Assembly: GCA_029309925.1 (NCBI GenBank)
Contig: JARKND010000005.1
Coordinates: 124,001 to 188,000, forward strand
Reading direction: 5' to 3'
DNA: 64,000 nucleotides
From: Fulvivirgaceae bacterium JP3-4
GTDB lineage: Bacteria > Bacteroidota > Bacteroidia > Cytophagales > Cyclobacteriaceae
Under the pieces are notes generated by a model. The model was not told the DNA's origin. It was given only the letters and a program-made list of their open reading frames with translations, and ran no database searches. This document shows positions 2,841-55,198 of this stretch, in pieces. The position numbers were made by a program, and so were the translations under genes. Each line of letters opens with the position of its first letter. Within the stretch, counting starts at the first letter, position 1.

Positions 2841-2966
2841 CAAATGACGAATGTAGAATGACGAGTGACGAATGAACGTCTTTCTTCAACTAACTCTCCA
2901 ATTGGAAAGGGTATCTTTAAATGACTCGCTACGAATTTGGCATTCGTAATTCGTCATTCGTAATTC
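2841..2966. repeat. Period-7 inverted-arm repeat island (atpB-atpE gap)
   Basis: The left arm, about 2841-2877, is a degenerate tandem array of the 7-mer aatgacg. The right arm, about 2931-2966, is its inverted counterpart (attcgta-type 7-mers) and ends one base before the atpB stop codon. The core is about 53 bp. The element sits inside the ATP synthase transcript, so the mRNA would carry a long imperfect hairpin between atpB and atpE. No open frame or promoter was recognised. Confidence 0.7.
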
Positions 2967-4010
2967 TTAATGGTGATCATCATGGTGTTCGTGGTCCGCG
3001 ATCGCCATCCCGATGTAAAGCGATGAGAACAACGTGAACACATACGCCTGAATCCCTGCTACGAGCAATTCAATCAAGCTGATGAACAATATCATAATTG
3101 ACGATCCCGCTCCGATCCACACGCTGTGGAAAATGAACGCGAGACAGATCAAACTTAAAATCACAATGTGACCTGCAGTGATCGCCACAAAAAGACGAAC
3201 CATCAGCGAGATCGGCTTGGTGAAAATACCGATGATCTCAACAGGCAAAATGATAATGCGAAGCGGAAGCGGAACACCGGGCGTCCAGAAGATGTGCGAC
3301 CAGTAGCCCTTGTTTCCGTTTACGTTAGTGATGATGAAGGTAAGGATGGCAAGTACAAACGTTACAGCAATGTTTCCTGTAAGGTTAGCCGCGCCCGGAA
3401 GGAGACCGAGCAGGTTTCCAAAAAGGATAAAAAAGAAAAGCGTCAGCATGTATGGCAGAAACTTCTCGTAGCGCGGGCCGATGTTTGGCTTTACTACCTC
3501 ATCGCGAACGAAGAGGATAATAGGCTCCAGGAATGATTGAAGGCCGCTTGGCGCCTTACCTGCGTTTTTCTTGTATGCCTTACCAACTGCTGTAAATACT
3601 AATAAAAGAAGCGCTGCATTAATAAAGAGCATTGCTACGTTTTTGGTGATCGAGAGATCGAATACTTTATCGTGTGTACCAGCCAGGTAAATCTTATTGT
3701 GCTGAAGGCTGTATCCGTTGTAGTCAACGATGTTGTGGTGCTCATCATAAAAGTTCTTAGACGAGAATACATCCAGCCCTTTTTCAGACGAGTATACAAT
3801 GACGGGAAGGAAGATGGTTCCGTAGTGACCGTCCCACAGGTGCCATACGTGATCGTCCATCACGTGGTGAAGAATTACCTCACTCGCGTTAAATTTTTCC
3901 TGGGGCTCATCAGAGTCCCCGGACGCCTTAGCGTCAACCGAAAAAACGCCTGCAAAAAGCAGGGTCAGCAATAAAGAAAAACGGCTTATTTTATTGAAGA
4001 ATGCGGTCAT
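2967..4010 (-). CDS. atpB: F0F1 ATP synthase subunit a
   Basis: Membrane subunit a, which forms the two proton half-channels against the c-ring. The 347 residues exceed the roughly 270 of E. coli because of an N-terminal extension. This consists of a signal-peptide-like segment (residues about 10-28) followed by a roughly 100-residue, His/Asp-rich extracytoplasmic stretch (HHVMDDHVWHLWDGHYG), a layout seen in Bacteroidota. The essential arginine is in SLMVRLFVAITAG, and several transmembrane helices surround it. The C-terminus is His/Asp-rich (DHEHHDDHH). It starts at an ATG at 4010. Confidence 0.95.
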   Translation of the reverse strand: MTAFFNKISRFSLLLTLLFAGVFSVDAKASGDSDEPQEKFNASEVILHHVMDDHVWHLWDGHYGTIFLPVIVYSSEKGLDVFSSKNFYDEHHNIVDYNGYSLQHNKIYLAGTHDKVFDLSITKNVAMLFINAALLLLVFTAVGKAYKKNAGKAPSGLQSFLEPIILFVRDEVVKPNIGPRYEKFLPYMLTLFFFILFGNLLGLLPGAANLTGNIAVTFVLAILTFIITNVNGNKGYWSHIFWTPGVPLPLRIIILPVEIIGIFTKPISLMVRLFVAITAGHIVILSLICLAFIFHSVWIGAGSSIMILFISLIELLVAGIQAYVFTLFSSLYIGMAIADHEHHDDHH

Positions 4011-11017: not shown

Positions 11018-11149
11018 TCAGTAGGCAGTAGGCAAATAGCAATAGGCGACCTGGCTCACTAGAGGCTGCTTCCCGGAAGGCAGTTGACCGGCTTCAACGT
11101 CTGGTATCGGACCTTGCTTACTGCCACTTGCATACTGCCTACTATTCTG
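11018..11149. repeat. Period-7 inverted-arm repeat island (PBP1A-uvrC gap)
   Basis: The left arm (about 11018-11049) is four to five degenerate copies of the 7-mer cagtagg and begins right after the PBP1A stop. The right arm (about 11114-11149) is the inverted form (actgcct-type 7-mers). The core is about 64 bp. The island fills nearly the whole gap before uvrC. No coding potential or clear terminator is seen. Confidence 0.7.
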
Positions 11150-11181: not shown

Positions 11182-13023
11182 ATGGCCGAAGTAAGAGAGG
11201 CTATTCAACGATTACCGGATTTACCTGGTGTATACAGGTTTTACAACGCAGACAATGAACTGATCTACGTTGGCAAGGCGAAGAACATCAAAAAACGTGT
11301 CAGCAGTTATTTTTCCAAAAGTGTAGGCATAAACCGCAAGACGTTGCGGCTTGTCTCAGAGATCATGAACATCGAGTATACGGTCTCCGACTCTGAGTTT
11401 GATGCGCTGTTGATGGAGAACAACTTCATCAAACAAAACCAGCCGAAGTACAATATCCTCCTCAAGGACGATAAAACCTTCCCTTACATCTGCATCATTA
11501 ACGAACGGTTTCCGAGAATCTACTATACGCGCAAATACGATCCTGCATTAGGTGAATATTTCGGGCCGTATTCAAGCGTTTCAGCGATGAAGAATGTTCT
11601 TGACCTGATTCACAAACTATATTCGATCCGCACGTGCAGCCTCCTCTTATCTCAGCAGAATATTGAACAGAACAAGTTCAAGCCGTGTCTTGAATTTCAT
11701 ATCGGCAATTGCAAGGCACCATGCATTGGCAACCAGACAGAAGAAAGTTACCTGGAGGAAATCGATCAGGCTCGCAATATTCTCAAAGGAAATCTGAGCA
11801 TCGTCTATCAGTATTTCCGCAAGGCAATGCAGGAGTCGTCTGCTAAGATGGAGTTCGAAAAAGCCCAGCGATTTCTCGATCGGCTCAATACACTCGAGCG
11901 CTTCCAGACGAAGTCGCTTGTTGTTAACCGTGATCTGACAGACACTGATGTGCTGACCATCTCAAGCATTCCGGAATATGCGTACGTCAACTACATCCAG
12001 ATAAAGGAAGGAGCGATAGTTTATTCAAAAACTGTTGAAATCAAGAAGAAGCTCGATGAGACAGACGAAGAAATTCTGAGCTTCGCAGCGCAGGAACTTC
12101 GCGTGGGAAACAACCCGGTAATTCTAAGCAACGTGGCCATCACACTGCTTGATGAAGAAGTTGAGAATGTAATTCCGAAGATCGGTGACAAGCGGAAGCT
12201 CATCAGCCTTTCGATCAAGAACGCGCTGGAGCTGCGGAAGGAAAAAGAGATTCTGCGCGAAGGCAAAAAATCGAAGCAGATGGAGACGCTTTCTATTTTG
12301 CAGAAAGATCTCCGCCTCCCTGCGCTGCCACTGATCATCGAGTGTTTTGACAATTCAAACTTCCAGGGAACTACACCGGTGGCTTCGATGGTGCGCTTCG
12401 AAAACGGCAAGCCCGACAAAAAAGGATACCGGCATTTCAACATCAAAACTGTTGAAGGACCGGATGACTTTGCCTCAATGAAAGAAATTGTTGGCAGGAG
12501 ATATAAGCGAATCCTCGATGAAGCAGGTCCGCTCCCTAACCTCATTCTCATCGATGGTGGTAAAGGGCAACTCAGCCACGCGTGCGAAGCGTTGAAAGAG
12601 CTTGACCTGTACGGAAAAATTCCGATTGTTGGTATCGCGAAGAAACTGGAAGAGATTTACTATCCGGAAGATCCAATTCCTTTGCACATCAACAAGAAAT
12701 CTCCGGGCCTTCTGCTCCTTCAGTACGTAAGAGATGAAGCGCACCGGTTTGCGATTACTTTTCATCGACAAAAACGAAGTAAGGCAACGATTAAAACCGG
12801 GCTCGAAGATTTCAAAGGGATAGGCAAAAGCACGGCTGACAAACTGTTGAGACATTTTAAATCTGTGAAGAAAATTAAGGAAGCATCGTTTGAAGAAATT
12901 GCCTCGGTGGTAGGAAACAAGAAAGCCGAAATCGTAAAAGGGCTGACTCAAACTGCAGATACATCCGCGAACGATGCAGGCGAAAGCGAGGAAGGAATAT
13001 CGAACAAGGAACAAGGAATGTAG
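11182..13023 (+). CDS. uvrC: Excinuclease ABC subunit C
   Basis: Nuclease of the UvrABC nucleotide-excision-repair system, which cuts on both sides of a DNA lesion. The 613 residues hold an N-terminal GIY-YIG domain (LPGVYRFY ... LIYVGKAKNIKKRVSSYF, residues about 12-45), a UVR motif (about 210-245), the RNase H-like endonuclease domain (about 370-530, LPLIIECFDNSN and LILIDGGKGQL) and C-terminal helix-hairpin-helix motifs (FKGIGKSTADKLL). The last residues (GISNKEQGM) are encoded by a heptamer array continuing into the gap, so the C-terminal tail is probably a repeat-derived addition. Confidence 0.96.
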   Translation: MAEVREAIQRLPDLPGVYRFYNADNELIYVGKAKNIKKRVSSYFSKSVGINRKTLRLVSEIMNIEYTVSDSEFDALLMENNFIKQNQPKYNILLKDDKTFPYICIINERFPRIYYTRKYDPALGEYFGPYSSVSAMKNVLDLIHKLYSIRTCSLLLSQQNIEQNKFKPCLEFHIGNCKAPCIGNQTEESYLEEIDQARNILKGNLSIVYQYFRKAMQESSAKMEFEKAQRFLDRLNTLERFQTKSLVVNRDLTDTDVLTISSIPEYAYVNYIQIKEGAIVYSKTVEIKKKLDETDEEILSFAAQELRVGNNPVILSNVAITLLDEEVENVIPKIGDKRKLISLSIKNALELRKEKEILREGKKSKQMETLSILQKDLRLPALPLIIECFDNSNFQGTTPVASMVRFENGKPDKKGYRHFNIKTVEGPDDFASMKEIVGRRYKRILDEAGPLPNLILIDGGKGQLSHACEALKELDLYGKIPIVGIAKKLEEIYYPEDPIPLHINKKSPGLLLLQYVRDEAHRFAITFHRQKRSKATIKTGLEDFKGIGKSTADKLLRHFKSVKKIKEASFEEIASVVGNKKAEIVKGLTQTADTSANDAGESEEGISNKEQGM

Positions 13024-13109
13024 AATCTAGAATTTCGAGCCGCAAAGCTTCCTAAAACCCACTTCGACATTCACAATTCTCTGTTGACTCTTCGACATTC
13101 AATTTCTTG
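12991..13109. repeat. Period-7 inverted-arm repeat island running into the uvrC 3' end
   Basis: The left arm (about 12991-13039) is a run of 7-mers of the type gaacaag/gaatgta. It starts inside the uvrC coding region and crosses the stop codon (13021-13023). The right arm (about 13061-13109) is the inverted form (cgacatt/caatttc-type 7-mers). The core is about 20 bp. A terminator hairpin follows directly. Confidence 0.65.
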
Positions 13110-22456: not shown

Positions 22457-22645
22457 GGGCTGCAAGTTACACGCTGCAAGCTTCAAGCCTGGACATCCCA
22501 ACTTTAAATTTCCGGACTTTGAAGTCGCACTGAATAGACTTGTAGCTTGAAGCTTGCGGCTTGCAGCTACTCCTTCACGCCTGGAAGTCAAAGTTTGAAT
22601 TACCATCACAGAGACGTGAAGCGTGTGGCGTGCAGCGTGAAGCGT
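22457..22645. repeat. Compound period-7 repeat island (two different words)
   Basis: Arm 1 (about 22457-22490, 7-mers of type gctgcaa/gcttcaa) has an inverted partner at about 22541-22570 (gcttgaa/gcttgca). A second array (about 22614-22645) uses another word, gcgtgaa/gcgtgtg/gcgtgca, with a short inverted match (cttcacgc) near 22573. The second array touches the stop codon of the GH130-like gene (22645). About 190 bp in all; no gene seen. Confidence 0.65.
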
Positions 22646-25631: not shown

Positions 25632-25805
25632 TAAGATTTAAGATTTAAGATTTAAGATTTAAGATTTAAGATTTAAGATTTTAGATTTAAGATTTTAGAT
25701 TTGGTGCCTGGTCATTCGTTTGCCAACAACATTGACGAATAATTTAATGATGGATAATCGTCCGCAAGGCGCGGACTAAAATCTAAAATCTCAAATCTCA
25801 ATTCA
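25632..25805. repeat. AT-rich period-7 inverted-arm repeat island
   Basis: The left arm (about 25632-25703) is the cleanest array in the window: about ten copies of the 7-mer taagatt (variants ttagatt), the first ones perfect. The right arm (about 25777-25805) is the inverted form (taaaatc/tcaaatc). The core is about 73 bp and contains a small hairpin, GTCCGC / GCGGAC (25760-25776). The right arm ends about 12 nt before the next start codon. Confidence 0.85.
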
Positions 25806-25817
25806 TAAATCGTTCTC

Positions 25818-31543: not shown

Positions 31544-31668
31544 ACAGTCACTAGTCACTGGTCATTAGTCATTAGGAATATCGGTCAGATTCAAACTAAT
31601 ATCAGCGAATACTCATTGGAGTTTAAAGACTCGCCCTGGTTGCTAGTGACTAATGACTAATGACTAAA
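31544..31668. repeat. Period-7 inverted-arm repeat island, type example
   Basis: The left arm (about 31544-31575) is four to five 7-mers of type tagtcac/tagtcat. The right arm (about 31641-31668) is the exact inverted form (taatgac/tagtgac). The core is about 65 bp with no repeats. The gap lies upstream of the 84-residue gene and downstream of tRNA-His, so it is expressed, if at all, only by read-through. Confidence 0.85.
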
Positions 31669-31671
31669 ATG

Positions 31672-31698
31672 AAAAAGCTTCCTTTTGGGAAGCTTTTT
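31672..31698. terminator. Intrinsic terminator downstream of tRNA-His
   Basis: Stem AAAAAGCTTCC / GGAAGCTTTTT with a 5-nt loop, 12 nt beyond the tRNA 3' end on the minus strand and rich in T on either side. Confidence 0.85.
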
Positions 31699-31709
31699 TC
31701 ATTTTTAAG

Positions 31710-35551: not shown

Positions 35552-35637
35552 AATAGCTACAAGCTGCAAGTCTATGCGGTAGGCTATCAAGGTTTGATGC
35601 GAGGGCTTGAAGCTTGCAGCTTGAGGCTTGAAGCTCA
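35552..35637. repeat. Period-7 inverted-arm repeat island
   Basis: The right arm (about 35604-35637) is five 7-mers of type gcttgaa/gcttgca/gcttgag. The shorter left arm (about 35552-35571, gctacaa/gctgcaa) is its inverted form. The core is about 32 bp. The word resembles that of arm 1 in the 22457-22570 island. It lies between rho and the downstream oxidoreductase gene. Confidence 0.7.
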
Positions 35638-38870: not shown

Positions 38871-38953
38871 CGCCACGAAGGCGCAAAGAAACGCAACGAA
38901 CGCCTGGCGAGCTTTGCGCCTTCTTTGCGTTCCCCCGATATGAAACAATCGGG
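38871..38953. repeat. Inverted-arm repeat (period about 7) plus CCCGAT hairpin
   Basis: The left arm (about 38871-38901, cacgaaggcgcaaag-type words) and the inverted right arm (about 38910-38932, ctttgcgccttc) are separated by only about 8 bp. Directly after comes a hairpin CCCGAT / ATCGGG (38934-38953, 8-nt loop), the same stem as at 31802. It is downstream of serS and could act as its transcript end, although there is no T-run. Confidence 0.6.
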
Positions 38954-41141: not shown

Positions 41142-41175
41142 AGGCTACAAGCTCCAGGCTACAAGCTGCAGGCTT
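41142..41175. repeat. Single period-7 array after the prolyl oligopeptidase gene
   Basis: Four to five 7-mers of type gctacaa/gctccag/gctgcag, starting just after the stop codon. No inverted partner is obvious in the 89-bp gap, so this is a one-armed form. The word is related to those at 22457 and 35552. Confidence 0.6.
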
Positions 41176-41718: not shown

Positions 41719-41873
41719 GGCGATGGGTGTTGGCCATGGGACCGCTATGGCTGTTGGCTATGGCCATGGCTAATTCAATAATTAATGATCAATAATCAAT
41801 TACGGACGCGAAGAGTAAACCTTCGCTGCTCCATTTGTGATTTGGTCATTTAATTATTGGTTATTTTTCAATC
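41719..41873. repeat. Compound period-7 repeat island
   Basis: A G/C-rich array (about 41719-41772, 7-mers like tggctat/tggccat) is followed at once by an AT-rich array (about 41773-41800, type taatcaa/tgatcaa). After a core of about 32 bp an inverted AT-rich arm follows (about 41833-41873, ttattgg/ttatttt). The last arm runs up to the stop codon of the DUF4286 gene at 41868. Confidence 0.65.
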
Positions 41874-47940: not shown

Positions 47941-47977
47941 AAAATTCTTAACAAACAGATGAAGTTCTGTTGAACTG

Positions 47978-48144
47978 ACCGCGTAACATTGCGCTCATTG
48001 GGCCATAGCGGTAAAGCGACATGATAACCCTCTGTTCCATTTGAAACAAGAGTGCCTCTTGGTGTGCAGCTTTGTTCGAAATGCCTTCGGCTTATCGGAT
48101 TTTTCTTTACCGCTCTGCCGCGATGTACGCTATGTTGCGCGATG
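47978..48144. repeat. Period-9 inverted-arm repeat island
   Basis: The left arm (about 47978-48016) and right arm (about 48105-48144) are inverted, matching at about 25 of 33 aligned bases. Each arm can be cut into four degenerate 9-mers of type acatagcgt. The core is about 88 bp. It takes up most of the 249-bp gap between the dehydrogenase start and the DinB-family stop, which otherwise holds only the promoter candidate. Confidence 0.65.
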
Positions 48145-48168
48145 AATATACCAGGAAAACTTTGCGTT

Positions 48169-48799: not shown

Positions 48800-49008
48800 A
48801 ATGTGCTCAGGTGCCCATGTGTTCATGTGTTAATGTGCTAGGTGTTCATGTGTTAGTGTGTTAATGTGTGAATGTTTGGCGGATGATCATTCGTTGGTAT
48901 CGGTAGATGGCGTCACTTTTATACCCGTATTTAAATATTCGCGACATTACATGGTTGGCGTGATACCTCGTAAACGCTGACATGAGCACATGAGTACACG
49001 ACCACATG
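48800..49008. repeat. Period-8 inverted-arm repeat island
   Basis: The left arm (about 48800-48874) is about nine degenerate copies of the 8-mer atgtgtta/atgtgttc. The right arm (about 48979-49008) has four copies of the inverted 8-mer acatgagc/acatgcgc. The core is about 104 bp. It occupies nearly the whole gap between the DinB-family start (48738) and the Crp/Fnr stop (49023). Both arms share the non-standard period, which shows that the arms evolve together. Confidence 0.8.
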
Positions 49009-49022
49009 CGCAGAGGAAGGAG

Positions 49023-53913: not shown

Positions 53914-53948
53914 GGCATTGGGAATTGGGCATTAGGCATTGGGAAATG
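53914..53948. repeat. Period-7 array upstream of gltX
   Basis: Five degenerate 7-mers of type gcattgg/gaattgg/gcattag. A clear full inverted arm is missing. The rest of the gap (to 54056) has a partial inverted match (near 54039-54053) and a hairpin TCCCGCG / CGCGGGA (54020-54036). The array lies behind the gltX promoter, away from the gene. Confidence 0.6.
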
Positions 53949-54503: not shown

Positions 54504-55181
54504 ATGCGGATTTTGATCGTTGGTGACGAAAGCCATGCAGAAGAATGCAGGCAAAAGCTTGGATCATCTCACTCCTTTGCTGTTGCTCCCGACCATACGA
54601 CACTGCGGAAACGCTTTCCTGAGCAAGATGTGATTTTCGACTTCATCATCGATGAAGATCCTGAGGAGTTCAGTGTGTATGCGGATGAAAACTGCGTGGT
54701 GTTCTTCAACACAGCGAAAATTAATCTGGCTGCTTTTGCTTTTTCGAATGCCCGCGAATTCAAGTGCACAGTTTTCGGATTTAACGGGCTTCCAACTTTT
54801 TTCAACCGCCCGATCCTCGAGGTTTCATGTTTGCGGCAAGCAGACATCATGAAACTTAGTTCCATGATGAAAAACCTGGGCACAGAATTTCGTGTTGTGG
54901 ATGACCGGGTTGGATTGGTAACACCACGCGTGATCTGCATGATCATCAACGAAGCCTACTATACCATTCAGGAAGGAACAGCAACACGAGAGGATATCGA
55001 TATAGCGATGAAGCTCGGCACCAATTATCCTTACGGGCCCTTCGAATGGTGTCAACGCATCGGCATCAGCCATGTTTATGAATTGCTCGAAGCAGTTTAT
55101 GATGACACAAAGGACGAGCGCTACAAAATCTGTCCGTTGTTGAAGAGAGAGTATTTGCTGCAAGTGGATGTTGACCGGTGA
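54504..55181 (+). CDS. 3-hydroxyacyl-CoA-dehydrogenase-like protein with degenerate active site
   Basis: A 225-residue protein whose C-terminal half (about 135-215) is clearly the HCDH C-terminal helical domain (VGLVTPRVICMIINEAYYTI, then EDIDIAMKLGTNYPYGPFEW). The N-terminal half should be the NAD-binding Rossmann domain but is reduced. It starts MRILIVGDESHAEE without the GxGxxG dinucleotide loop. The segment equivalent to the catalytic-His motif (usually HFFNP) reads GLPTFFNRP with no His. It may be a pseudoenzyme or a binding protein rather than a dehydrogenase. The ATG at 54504 was chosen over an upstream TTG at 54462. Confidence 0.72.
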   Translation: MRILIVGDESHAEECRQKLGSSHSFAVAPDHTTLRKRFPEQDVIFDFIIDEDPEEFSVYADENCVVFFNTAKINLAAFAFSNAREFKCTVFGFNGLPTFFNRPILEVSCLRQADIMKLSSMMKNLGTEFRVVDDRVGLVTPRVICMIINEAYYTIQEGTATREDIDIAMKLGTNYPYGPFEWCQRIGISHVYELLEAVYDDTKDERYKICPLLKREYLLQVDVDR

Positions 55182-55198
55182 CCGGATACCGGTCGTAA
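55172..55198. repeat. Period-7 array overlapping the 3' end of the HCDH-like gene
   Basis: Three to four 7-mers of type gaccggt/gaccgga/taccggt begin within the last codons (VDR) of the gene and run past the stop at 55181. They are self-complementary (ACCGGT) and could fold on themselves. The neighbouring gap is only 24 bp. Confidence 0.55.

Follow-up and report, generated by a model that had tools for sequence, protein, structure and literature searches.

Heptamer tandem repeats of cyanobacteria are known under the name STRR, and the foldback transposons (Drosophila FB, Galileo) carry long terminal inverted repeats made of short tandem repeats, the presence of a central gene being optional. 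According to the parts of the respective papers that are cited here, two Xanthomonas strains contain 70 and 75 convergent inverted heptamer pairs (PMC4692102), TAACTGA repeats occur in Cyanobacteria, Bacteroidetes and Beggiatoaceae (PMC4679880), heptanucleotide repeats and paired sites occur in Geobacter (PMC2700814), and in the intervening sequence (IVS) of Coxiella three tandem heptamers and a degenerate fourth immediately precede the open reading frame (ORF) for S23p, the 23S rRNA intervening-sequence protein, with an RNase III site at the first heptamer (PMC4990558). We analysed a stretch of 64 kb from the Fulvivirgaceae bacterium JP3-4 (hereafter the window), in which many intergenic gaps contain islands of a degenerate, tandemly repeated short word, mostly arranged as two inverted arms around a core. 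The island that starts at position 31544 was the starting point. An initial annotation, made from the letters of the window, had suggested local generation, or a common origin followed by diversification, for these islands and had named no account of inverted-arm versions in Cytophagales-like Bacteroidota; inverted heptad pairs as such had already been published for Xanthomonas. Our analyses indicate that the islands are a real feature, and that they are probably copies, without a gene, of small hairpin insertion elements akin to IVSs, which explains them better than local accidents do.

The abundance of the repeats was assessed in 864 kb of the own genome, consisting of the window and a further 800 kb, in which genes were called as longest ORFs and not taken from an annotation. 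At a threshold of 11, the intergenic gaps contained 60 arrays of period 7 and 19 arrays of period 8, as compared to 0.2 and 0.1, respectively, in shuffled sequence, while no arrays of period 9 were found at this threshold. The identity at lag 7 was 0.279 in gaps, as compared to 0.260 after shuffling of the gaps and 0.244 for coding DNA; echoes appeared at lags 14 and 21, and lag 8 showed a smaller peak. Inverted arms with scores of at least 13 were present in 73 of the 301 gaps, and in 53 of these gaps the loop measured 20 bases or more, while shuffling yielded 1.7 per 301 gaps with any loop; direct arm pairs were enriched to a lesser extent (29 versus 1.0 in shuffled gaps). The initial annotation had proposed a scan for periods 7, 8 and 9 and for inversion against shuffled gaps, and periods 7 and 8 as well as inversion indeed lie far above chance. 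Its view that the period is mostly 7 is to be corrected in that the islands have periods 7 and 8.

Its view that the word differs at each site was not upheld. The arms of the 31544 island recur in 27 further genome matches, and words of the GCTTGCA/GCTACAA type are found at the gaps 22457, 35552 and 41142. All 27 matches fall within bases 1-41 or 100-125 of the 125 bases of the island, which shows that the similarity resides in the arms and not in the core, and a core shared among islands was therefore rejected as a candidate. Thus, the words form families, and neither a single family nor a new word for every site is the right description. A mobile family of fixed sequence, which the initial annotation had argued against, indeed cannot explain the islands. 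Its dismissal of transposition altogether nevertheless does not hold, since the same arms bracket genes for S23p or for the GxxExxY protein, since words are shared with such gene-bearing elements, and since filled and empty sites exist.

The own genome contains 12 matches to PF05635 (S23p), 10 of which exceed the family cut-off, and all 12 genes are bracketed by inverted arms with scores of 14.8 to 32.0. The coordinates of the inverted pair flank the matched domain in 12 of 12 cases, at least one row of period 7 or 8 is located nearby in all of them, and the arms start within approximately 260 bases of the ORF, mostly much closer. Among 200 control ORFs of 270-600 bases from the 864 kb, flanking arms with a score of at least 14 were found for one, which is itself an S23p gene, and in a wider control of 575 genes of less than 1500 bases they were found for five, including that S23p gene. 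For the own loci and the small-ORF controls, the single best inverted pair per region was scored, meaning that a flanking pair was missed wherever the same region held a stronger pair that does not flank the gene. All five S23p proteins that were scanned exceed the cut-off of the NCBIfam model, one of them (L078) being under the Pfam cut-off, and solved relatives are 2rld and 2gsc.

The linkage extends to other genomes. A first sample combined loci from a contig scan with six plasmid loci and the 12 own loci; the scan, which covered one S23p branch with the best 80 of its 586 confirmed relatives, is therefore non-random. Five of the 98 loci in this sample were too near to a contig end, leaving 93 for scoring. 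As nulls, left and right flanks were swapped between loci or flanks were shuffled, and a score of 14 was used as cut-off. Arms at or above this cut-off were found at 74 of 93 loci, versus 12 of 456 swapped pairs and 0 of 93 shuffled ones; these nulls belong to the 93-locus scoring, an earlier scoring of 86 loci in 350-base windows having been done without a null. With one locus per cluster of shared flanks, own loci included, the count was 51 of 61. The period in the 74 loci with arms was 7 in 51, 8 in 10, and 6 or 9 in 3, with none in 10, and any period was found for 6 of 74 after shuffling of the arms. The family is present in 45 of 61 Bacteroidota genomes, with up to 16 matches per genome, and a second sample of best loci from a family-model search of these genomes (2 of 29 loci dropped, 27 scorable) gave arms in 17 of 27 versus 10 of 210 swapped pairs. 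This shows that arms are usual at S23p genes, but not universal. Loci labelled as non-Bacteroidota had arms in 19 of 22 cases (2 of 24 dropped), a set in which one Calothrix strain is represented by two plasmids and one insertion by two Nostoc plasmids. Those with arms include KSB1, Bacillota, Omnitrophota, Planctomycetota, SAR324, Patescibacteria, Chloroflexota, Xanthomonas, Atribacterota, Cyanobacteriota and Gemmatimonadota, and those without are Treponema, one Omnitrophota and Balneolota. No match was found in phages with one S23p query. One S23p locus (L236) has an in-frame stop and a very long array of period 7 (score 143), possibly a runaway expansion.

A second gene is found in the same position. 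Four of the five genes matching PF13366 (GxxExxY) in the own genome are bracketed by arms, with scores of 23.8 to 36.6 and with words that differ from those at S23p genes (CTCTGCG, CTCCGCG and CTTGGTG types). Two GxxExxY proteins were scanned and both exceed the NCBIfam model cut-off. The gene was found in 29 of the 61 Bacteroidota genomes, and in the combined set (2 of 34 loci dropped) arms scored at least 14 in 19 of 32 loci versus 6 of 252 swapped pairs, and at least 16 in 19 of 32 versus 0 of 252. A period was detectable in 14 of the 19 loci with arms, ranging from 6 to 11 and mostly from 8 to 10. The arm period thus seems to be tied to the enclosed gene, being mostly 7 for S23p and 8 to 10 for GxxExxY. 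In the leader ahead of the ORF start, a GATGC motif was noted at six loci, five with S23p and one with GxxExxY (L072, L073, L075, L078, L079, L081); at L081 it could pair with a GCATC located just 5' of the start codon. An ORF of 235 codons (L029:17473-18180; G000:C1:377473-378180) was considered as a third cargo gene and rejected, because its translation, judged by eye, is unlike the element genes. It is flanked by long inverted arms of CTTGGTGT type with a score of 26.6, which resemble GxxExxY-type words.

The gene-less islands and the gene-bearing elements are of one kind, as judged from the sharing of words within the own genome and from the agreeing polarity of the left arm. When the arms of the 12 own S23p elements were compared with 34 periodic islands without a gene, taken from the 864 kb, the median best score was 18.7, as opposed to 11.6 for 57 foreign S23p loci (p=0.003). 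The S23p element at C1:2823353 has the 31544 island as its best match, with an arm score of 20.6, and both arms of the S23p element L078 are matched by those of the degenerate island 12995..13100 (23.2 and 16.6, the best of 200 left-arm shuffles reaching 11.2). Of the own GxxExxY elements, three reach scores of 21.8 to 27.8 with gene-less islands and the fourth reaches 10.6; the median for 15 foreign ones was 10.4. In the left arm, an excess of AG over CT versus the opposite was seen in 51 versus 13 S23p loci (10 ties), in 17 versus 2 GxxExxY loci and in 20 versus 3 of 29 periodic gene-less islands.

Sites with and without an insert could be compared in plasmids and in related genomes, the junctions being read by eye. 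Ten of the BLAST records for the Nostoc and Calothrix regions (30 and 44, respectively) were examined besides the filled ones. At a Nostoc plasmid site flanked by a TraM-like and a hypothetical gene, an S23p element is present in L168 and L169 and nothing in L171, L172 and L175, while L173 has an insert that lacks a gene, shares the left junction and has a related word, and L174 a composite insert with another word. In two plasmids of one Calothrix strain, the stop codon of an integrase gene is directly followed by the element, which stops just short of the homologous start of the adjacent gene; in relatives, the site has no insert in L176-L178 and L180, and another gene in L179. Arms are missing, as judged by eye, at all seven empty sites (L171, L172, L175-L178, L180). 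Most of the gene order of the window is kept in two congeneric genomes, G001 and G002; the window's island is missing at the ten named gaps compared in G001 and at the nine compared in G002. At the gap of the 2844 island the stretch compared measures 171 bases in the own genome, 41 in G001 and 75 in G002, both of the latter being without arms. The island of gap 25632 is missing in G001, and G002 has an inverted pair with a different word there (CGAGATACGAAGTACG, 13.8); at gap 38871, both genomes have inverted repeats of other sequence. A comparison with gaps from relatives, as suggested in the initial annotation, thus shows presence and absence of islands at the same site.

At conserved sites, the two arms remain complementary to each other although the word often differs from species to species. 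A fatty-acid operon (enoyl-CoA hydratase and thiolase, from the translation and Pfam matches of one locus) has a site that is shared by several S23p genes; the same evidence ruled out the designation of the shared Flavobacteriia locus as gmk-nadD, which had been derived from the table of a paper. For 16 loci of this operon, distributed over two neighbouring gaps, arm pairing averaged 17.0 within a locus and 9.6 between loci, the own partner being the best in 11 of 16 rows, and two Pontibacter species with an insert at one site had scores of 20.6 and 22.0 within and 8.0 and 8.0 across species. In 50 orthologous pairs, which are mutually non-independent, pairing scored 17.3 within a locus and 12.4 across species and was better within in 39. 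The five closest pairs (flank identity of at least 81%) showed no such difference in four cases, as would be expected if words drift slowly. In an S23p tree based on few columns, the copies in the fatty-acid operon do not form one clade (8 changes, at least 3 of them forced by well supported branches), which implies that some were replaced or moved. Judged by blastn offsets, S23p is found in either of two neighbouring gaps of this operon in related Bacteroidota (L097, L098, L103, L156), and these gaps are possibly an insertion hot spot.

Most S23p elements are placed in the sense of the preceding gene. The upstream gene was co-directional in 72 of 73 S23p loci with arms and, upon dereplication, in 49 of 50, versus 473 of 717 genes in the own genome (p=2.5e-8). 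Gaps with arrays of period 7 or 8 were divergent in 7 of 56 cases versus 71 of 243 other gaps (p=0.011). From sequence, both the orientation and the small number of divergent gaps would fit elements living inside transcripts.

Combining these results, a full element starts with a 5' arm made of degenerate 7-8-base repeats, which is followed by a short leader, the ORF and a short trailer; the 3' arm at the other end is an inverted copy of the first arm. The ORF of some 110-160 codons encodes either the four-helix bundle S23p or GxxExxY, a nuclease of the PD-(D/E)XK type, the latter with other words and longer periods. The arms can pair into a long hairpin in RNA or in single-stranded DNA. The gaps with islands are presumably transcribed, and RNase III may excise the hairpin from host transcripts by analogy with ribosomal IVSs, which would make insertion into operons tolerable. 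Template switching between arms is known as quasipalindrome correction, and the arms may stay matched because one is recopied from the other in this way in the folded hairpin, together with slippage; selection for pairing may help to keep them so. S23p or GxxExxY would assist in mobility or maintenance, also of gene-less copies.

Several observations weigh against this interpretation. In 11 of the 50 orthologous pairs, with flank identities of 66 to 98%, pairing across species was equal or better, and the better match of own than of foreign arms to the gene-less islands may partly reflect base composition. Scores below 14 were obtained for 13 of 32 GxxExxY loci and for 10 of 27 S23p loci of the second sample. 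The orientation bias in that sample was weaker (14 of 17 loci with arms, 6 of 10 without), and first-sample loci without arms were also co-directional in 17 of 19 cases, so that the bias may belong to S23p genes rather than to the arms. The Nostoc site does not represent a clean insertion, since the filled plasmids lack about 40 bases that are present at the empty site. No constant target duplication was evident by eye, none being seen at the second site and a possible one of 4 bases in a composite insert. Moreover, no transposase was seen inside the elements, with no search aimed at DDE or FB/Galileo families. The own genome gave one RVT_1 match below the family cut-off, and mobility driven by a reverse transcriptase of this genome was rejected because none exceeds that cut-off.

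The origin favoured in the initial annotation was purely local mutation, with slippage producing the heptad arrays and snap-back copying the inverted arm, and with no element or protein being involved. This would account for the turnover of words in place, in both arms together, and for the G002 pair with another word at gap 25632, and it is apparently correct in that something local keeps the arms matched. However, it does not cover the bracketing of S23p and GxxExxY genes, and it fails to predict the sharing of words with gene-bearing elements, the common polarity and the 27 further arm matches. As a full explanation we therefore consider it unlikely. The islands might instead be host RNA signals, namely terminators, attenuators or RNase III sites selected for mRNA control. 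Predicted RNA folds are strong in seven islands (z of -2.4 to -5.7); that of the 31544 island has -43.4 kcal/mol with a z of -5.73, as compared to 0.04 for a nearby control stretch, and none of 200 shuffles was as good. The rarity of arrays in divergent gaps points in the same direction. On the other hand, the islands are missing from the same gaps in G001 and G002 (ten and nine gaps compared, respectively), and the 31544 island adjoins a separate terminator-like hairpin, which leaves a role purely as host signals with a rather small probability.

Elements of the REPIN type, mobilised by the Y1 transposase RAYT, also place paired inverted repeats in gaps, and the own genome has five Y1_Tnp genes. 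None of these five is bracketed by heptad arms, as opposed to all 12 S23p genes, although two of them (L063, L067) have single arrays at a distance of less than 550 bases. This origin was rejected on these grounds and appears highly improbable to us. Near two other Y1 transposase loci, L064 and L065, GGCTCCTGGCGGAGCC-like and CCGGCTTAAG-like inverted repeats were noted, which are probably ordinary REP-type repeats. Lastly, arms and S23p could merely be neighbours if S23p inserts into gaps that already hold inverted heptads. Gaps with inverted arms and no S23p do outnumber the S23p genes, but the closeness of the arms to the ORF in the 12 own elements is not in favour of this explanation, and the seven empty sites without arms largely refute it. 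We regard it as barely credible, and the reading as gene-less IVS-like elements is retained.

The features of the window are listed below. Of the 14 gaps named in the initial annotation, 12 have a Tandem Repeats Finder row of period 7, 8 or 14, the exceptions being 38871 and 47978, and its description of paired inverted arms is clearly applicable to nine, the remaining five being degenerate, weak or without a clear second arm. The inverted repeat at 47967-48154 looks like a separate family, because it is non-periodic and because a similar pair, judged by eye, is located upstream of an unbracketed GxxExxY gene (L083). A scan of the 64 kb against Rfam gave tRNA-His as the sole match and no known RNA family at the islands.

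Features of the window (bases from its first letter; numbers in brackets are arm scores)
Position	Strand	Feature	Word	Arms	Second arm	Remarks
31544-31668	.	island	AGTCACT/AGTCATT (heptads)	31552-31578, inverted 31640-31666	clear	61-base core
31672-31699	.	terminator-like hairpin with T tract				by eye; adjoins the 31544 island, separate from it
2844-2971		island	AATGACG/ATTCGTA	2844-2874, 2941-2971	clear	matches S23p element L079 (21.2)
11020-11143		island	AGTAGGC	11020-11047, 11116-11143	clear	best match of S23p element L070 (12.6)
12995-13100		degenerate island	GAACAAG	12995-13033, 13069-13100	degenerate	
22465-22645		island(s)	GCTTGCA, CGTGAAG	22465-22488, 22545-22568	clear	further array 22615-22645
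25632-25811		island	TAAGATT, 10 copies	25649-25684, 25776-25811	clear	
35555-35635		island	GCTTGAA/GCTTGCA	35555/35613	clear	
38871-38929		inverted arms	CGAAGGCGCAAAG type	38871/38912	clear	by eye nearest to words at GxxExxY genes; match to L084 merely 10.6
41142-41174		single arm	GCTACAA		not clear (5.6)	14-base row
41775-41871		weak pair	ATCAATA		weak (10)	named 41719
47967-48154		long non-periodic inverted repeat	CATAGCGGTAAAG type	47967/48105	clear	
48800-49012		octad island		48801-48828, 48980-49007	clear	
53914-53945		single arm	ATTGGGA		not clear (8.4)	
55172-55193		weak single array	TGACCGG			Tandem Repeats Finder

Beyond this genome, we see about even chances that there is one very widespread, unnamed class of bacterial mobile elements, the ends of which have no fixed sequence and consist of hypervariable tandem arms of 7-8-base words, the two arms mirroring each other throughout their joint evolution. 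This class would comprise 23S rRNA IVSs, the heptamer repeats of cyanobacteria and xanthomonads, orphan genes for four-helix bundles and GxxExxY genes. Among the open-access papers listed, as far as titles and the openings of abstracts go, none joins heptad arms with S23p or GxxExxY, except for the heptamers of the Coxiella IVS. The present findings would join three loose ends, namely the nature of intergenic heptamers, the origin of ribosomal IVSs and the sporadic, multicopy occurrence of S23p and GxxExxY genes. They also provide a natural case in which two DNA arms still match while their sequence turns over, which makes copying by template switching and selection for pairing testable.

With regard to known systems, the islands resemble REPIN/RAYT elements and bacterial miniature inverted-repeat transposable elements in being short, non-autonomous inverted-repeat elements in gaps, but their arms are tandem and hypervariable and no RAYT gene is bracketed. 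A connection to retroelements is suggested by the protein: one of the five scanned S23p proteins weakly matches the bAvd/Avd models below their cut-offs, and S23p appears to be a distant relative of Avd, the accessory protein of diversity-generating retroelements. This homology is discussed in the cited part of PMC10053308. Unlike in such retroelements, no reverse transcriptase over the cut-off is found in the own genome. Foldback transposons share with the present elements inverted repeats at the termini that are themselves composed of short tandem repeats, but they are eukaryotic, and the arm words here differ between copies; no transposase related to the foldback kind is known for the present elements. 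The STRR of cyanobacteria and the GGGAATC-type heptamers of Xanthomonas and Nostoc are likewise intergenic tandem heptamers, which in the present genome occur above chance. The Xanthomonas and TAACTGA heptamers have been treated as quadruplex-forming or regulatory, and the terms S23 and four helix occur in neither of these papers (PMC4692102, PMC4679880). The 23S rRNA IVSs have in common with the elements described here an inverted-repeat stem around an S23p ORF: a long terminal stem is present, and S23p is located in the loop of full-length copies (12 of 12), the window islands carrying no S23p. An Rfam scan of 20 S23p loci, of which one belongs to the own genome's 12, gave no family match and no rRNA, and placement inside an rRNA gene was rejected for these 20. 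The elements differ from the ribosomal IVSs in the periodicity and word specificity of the two arms, in the common occurrence of gene-less forms, and in that GxxExxY can take the place of S23p.
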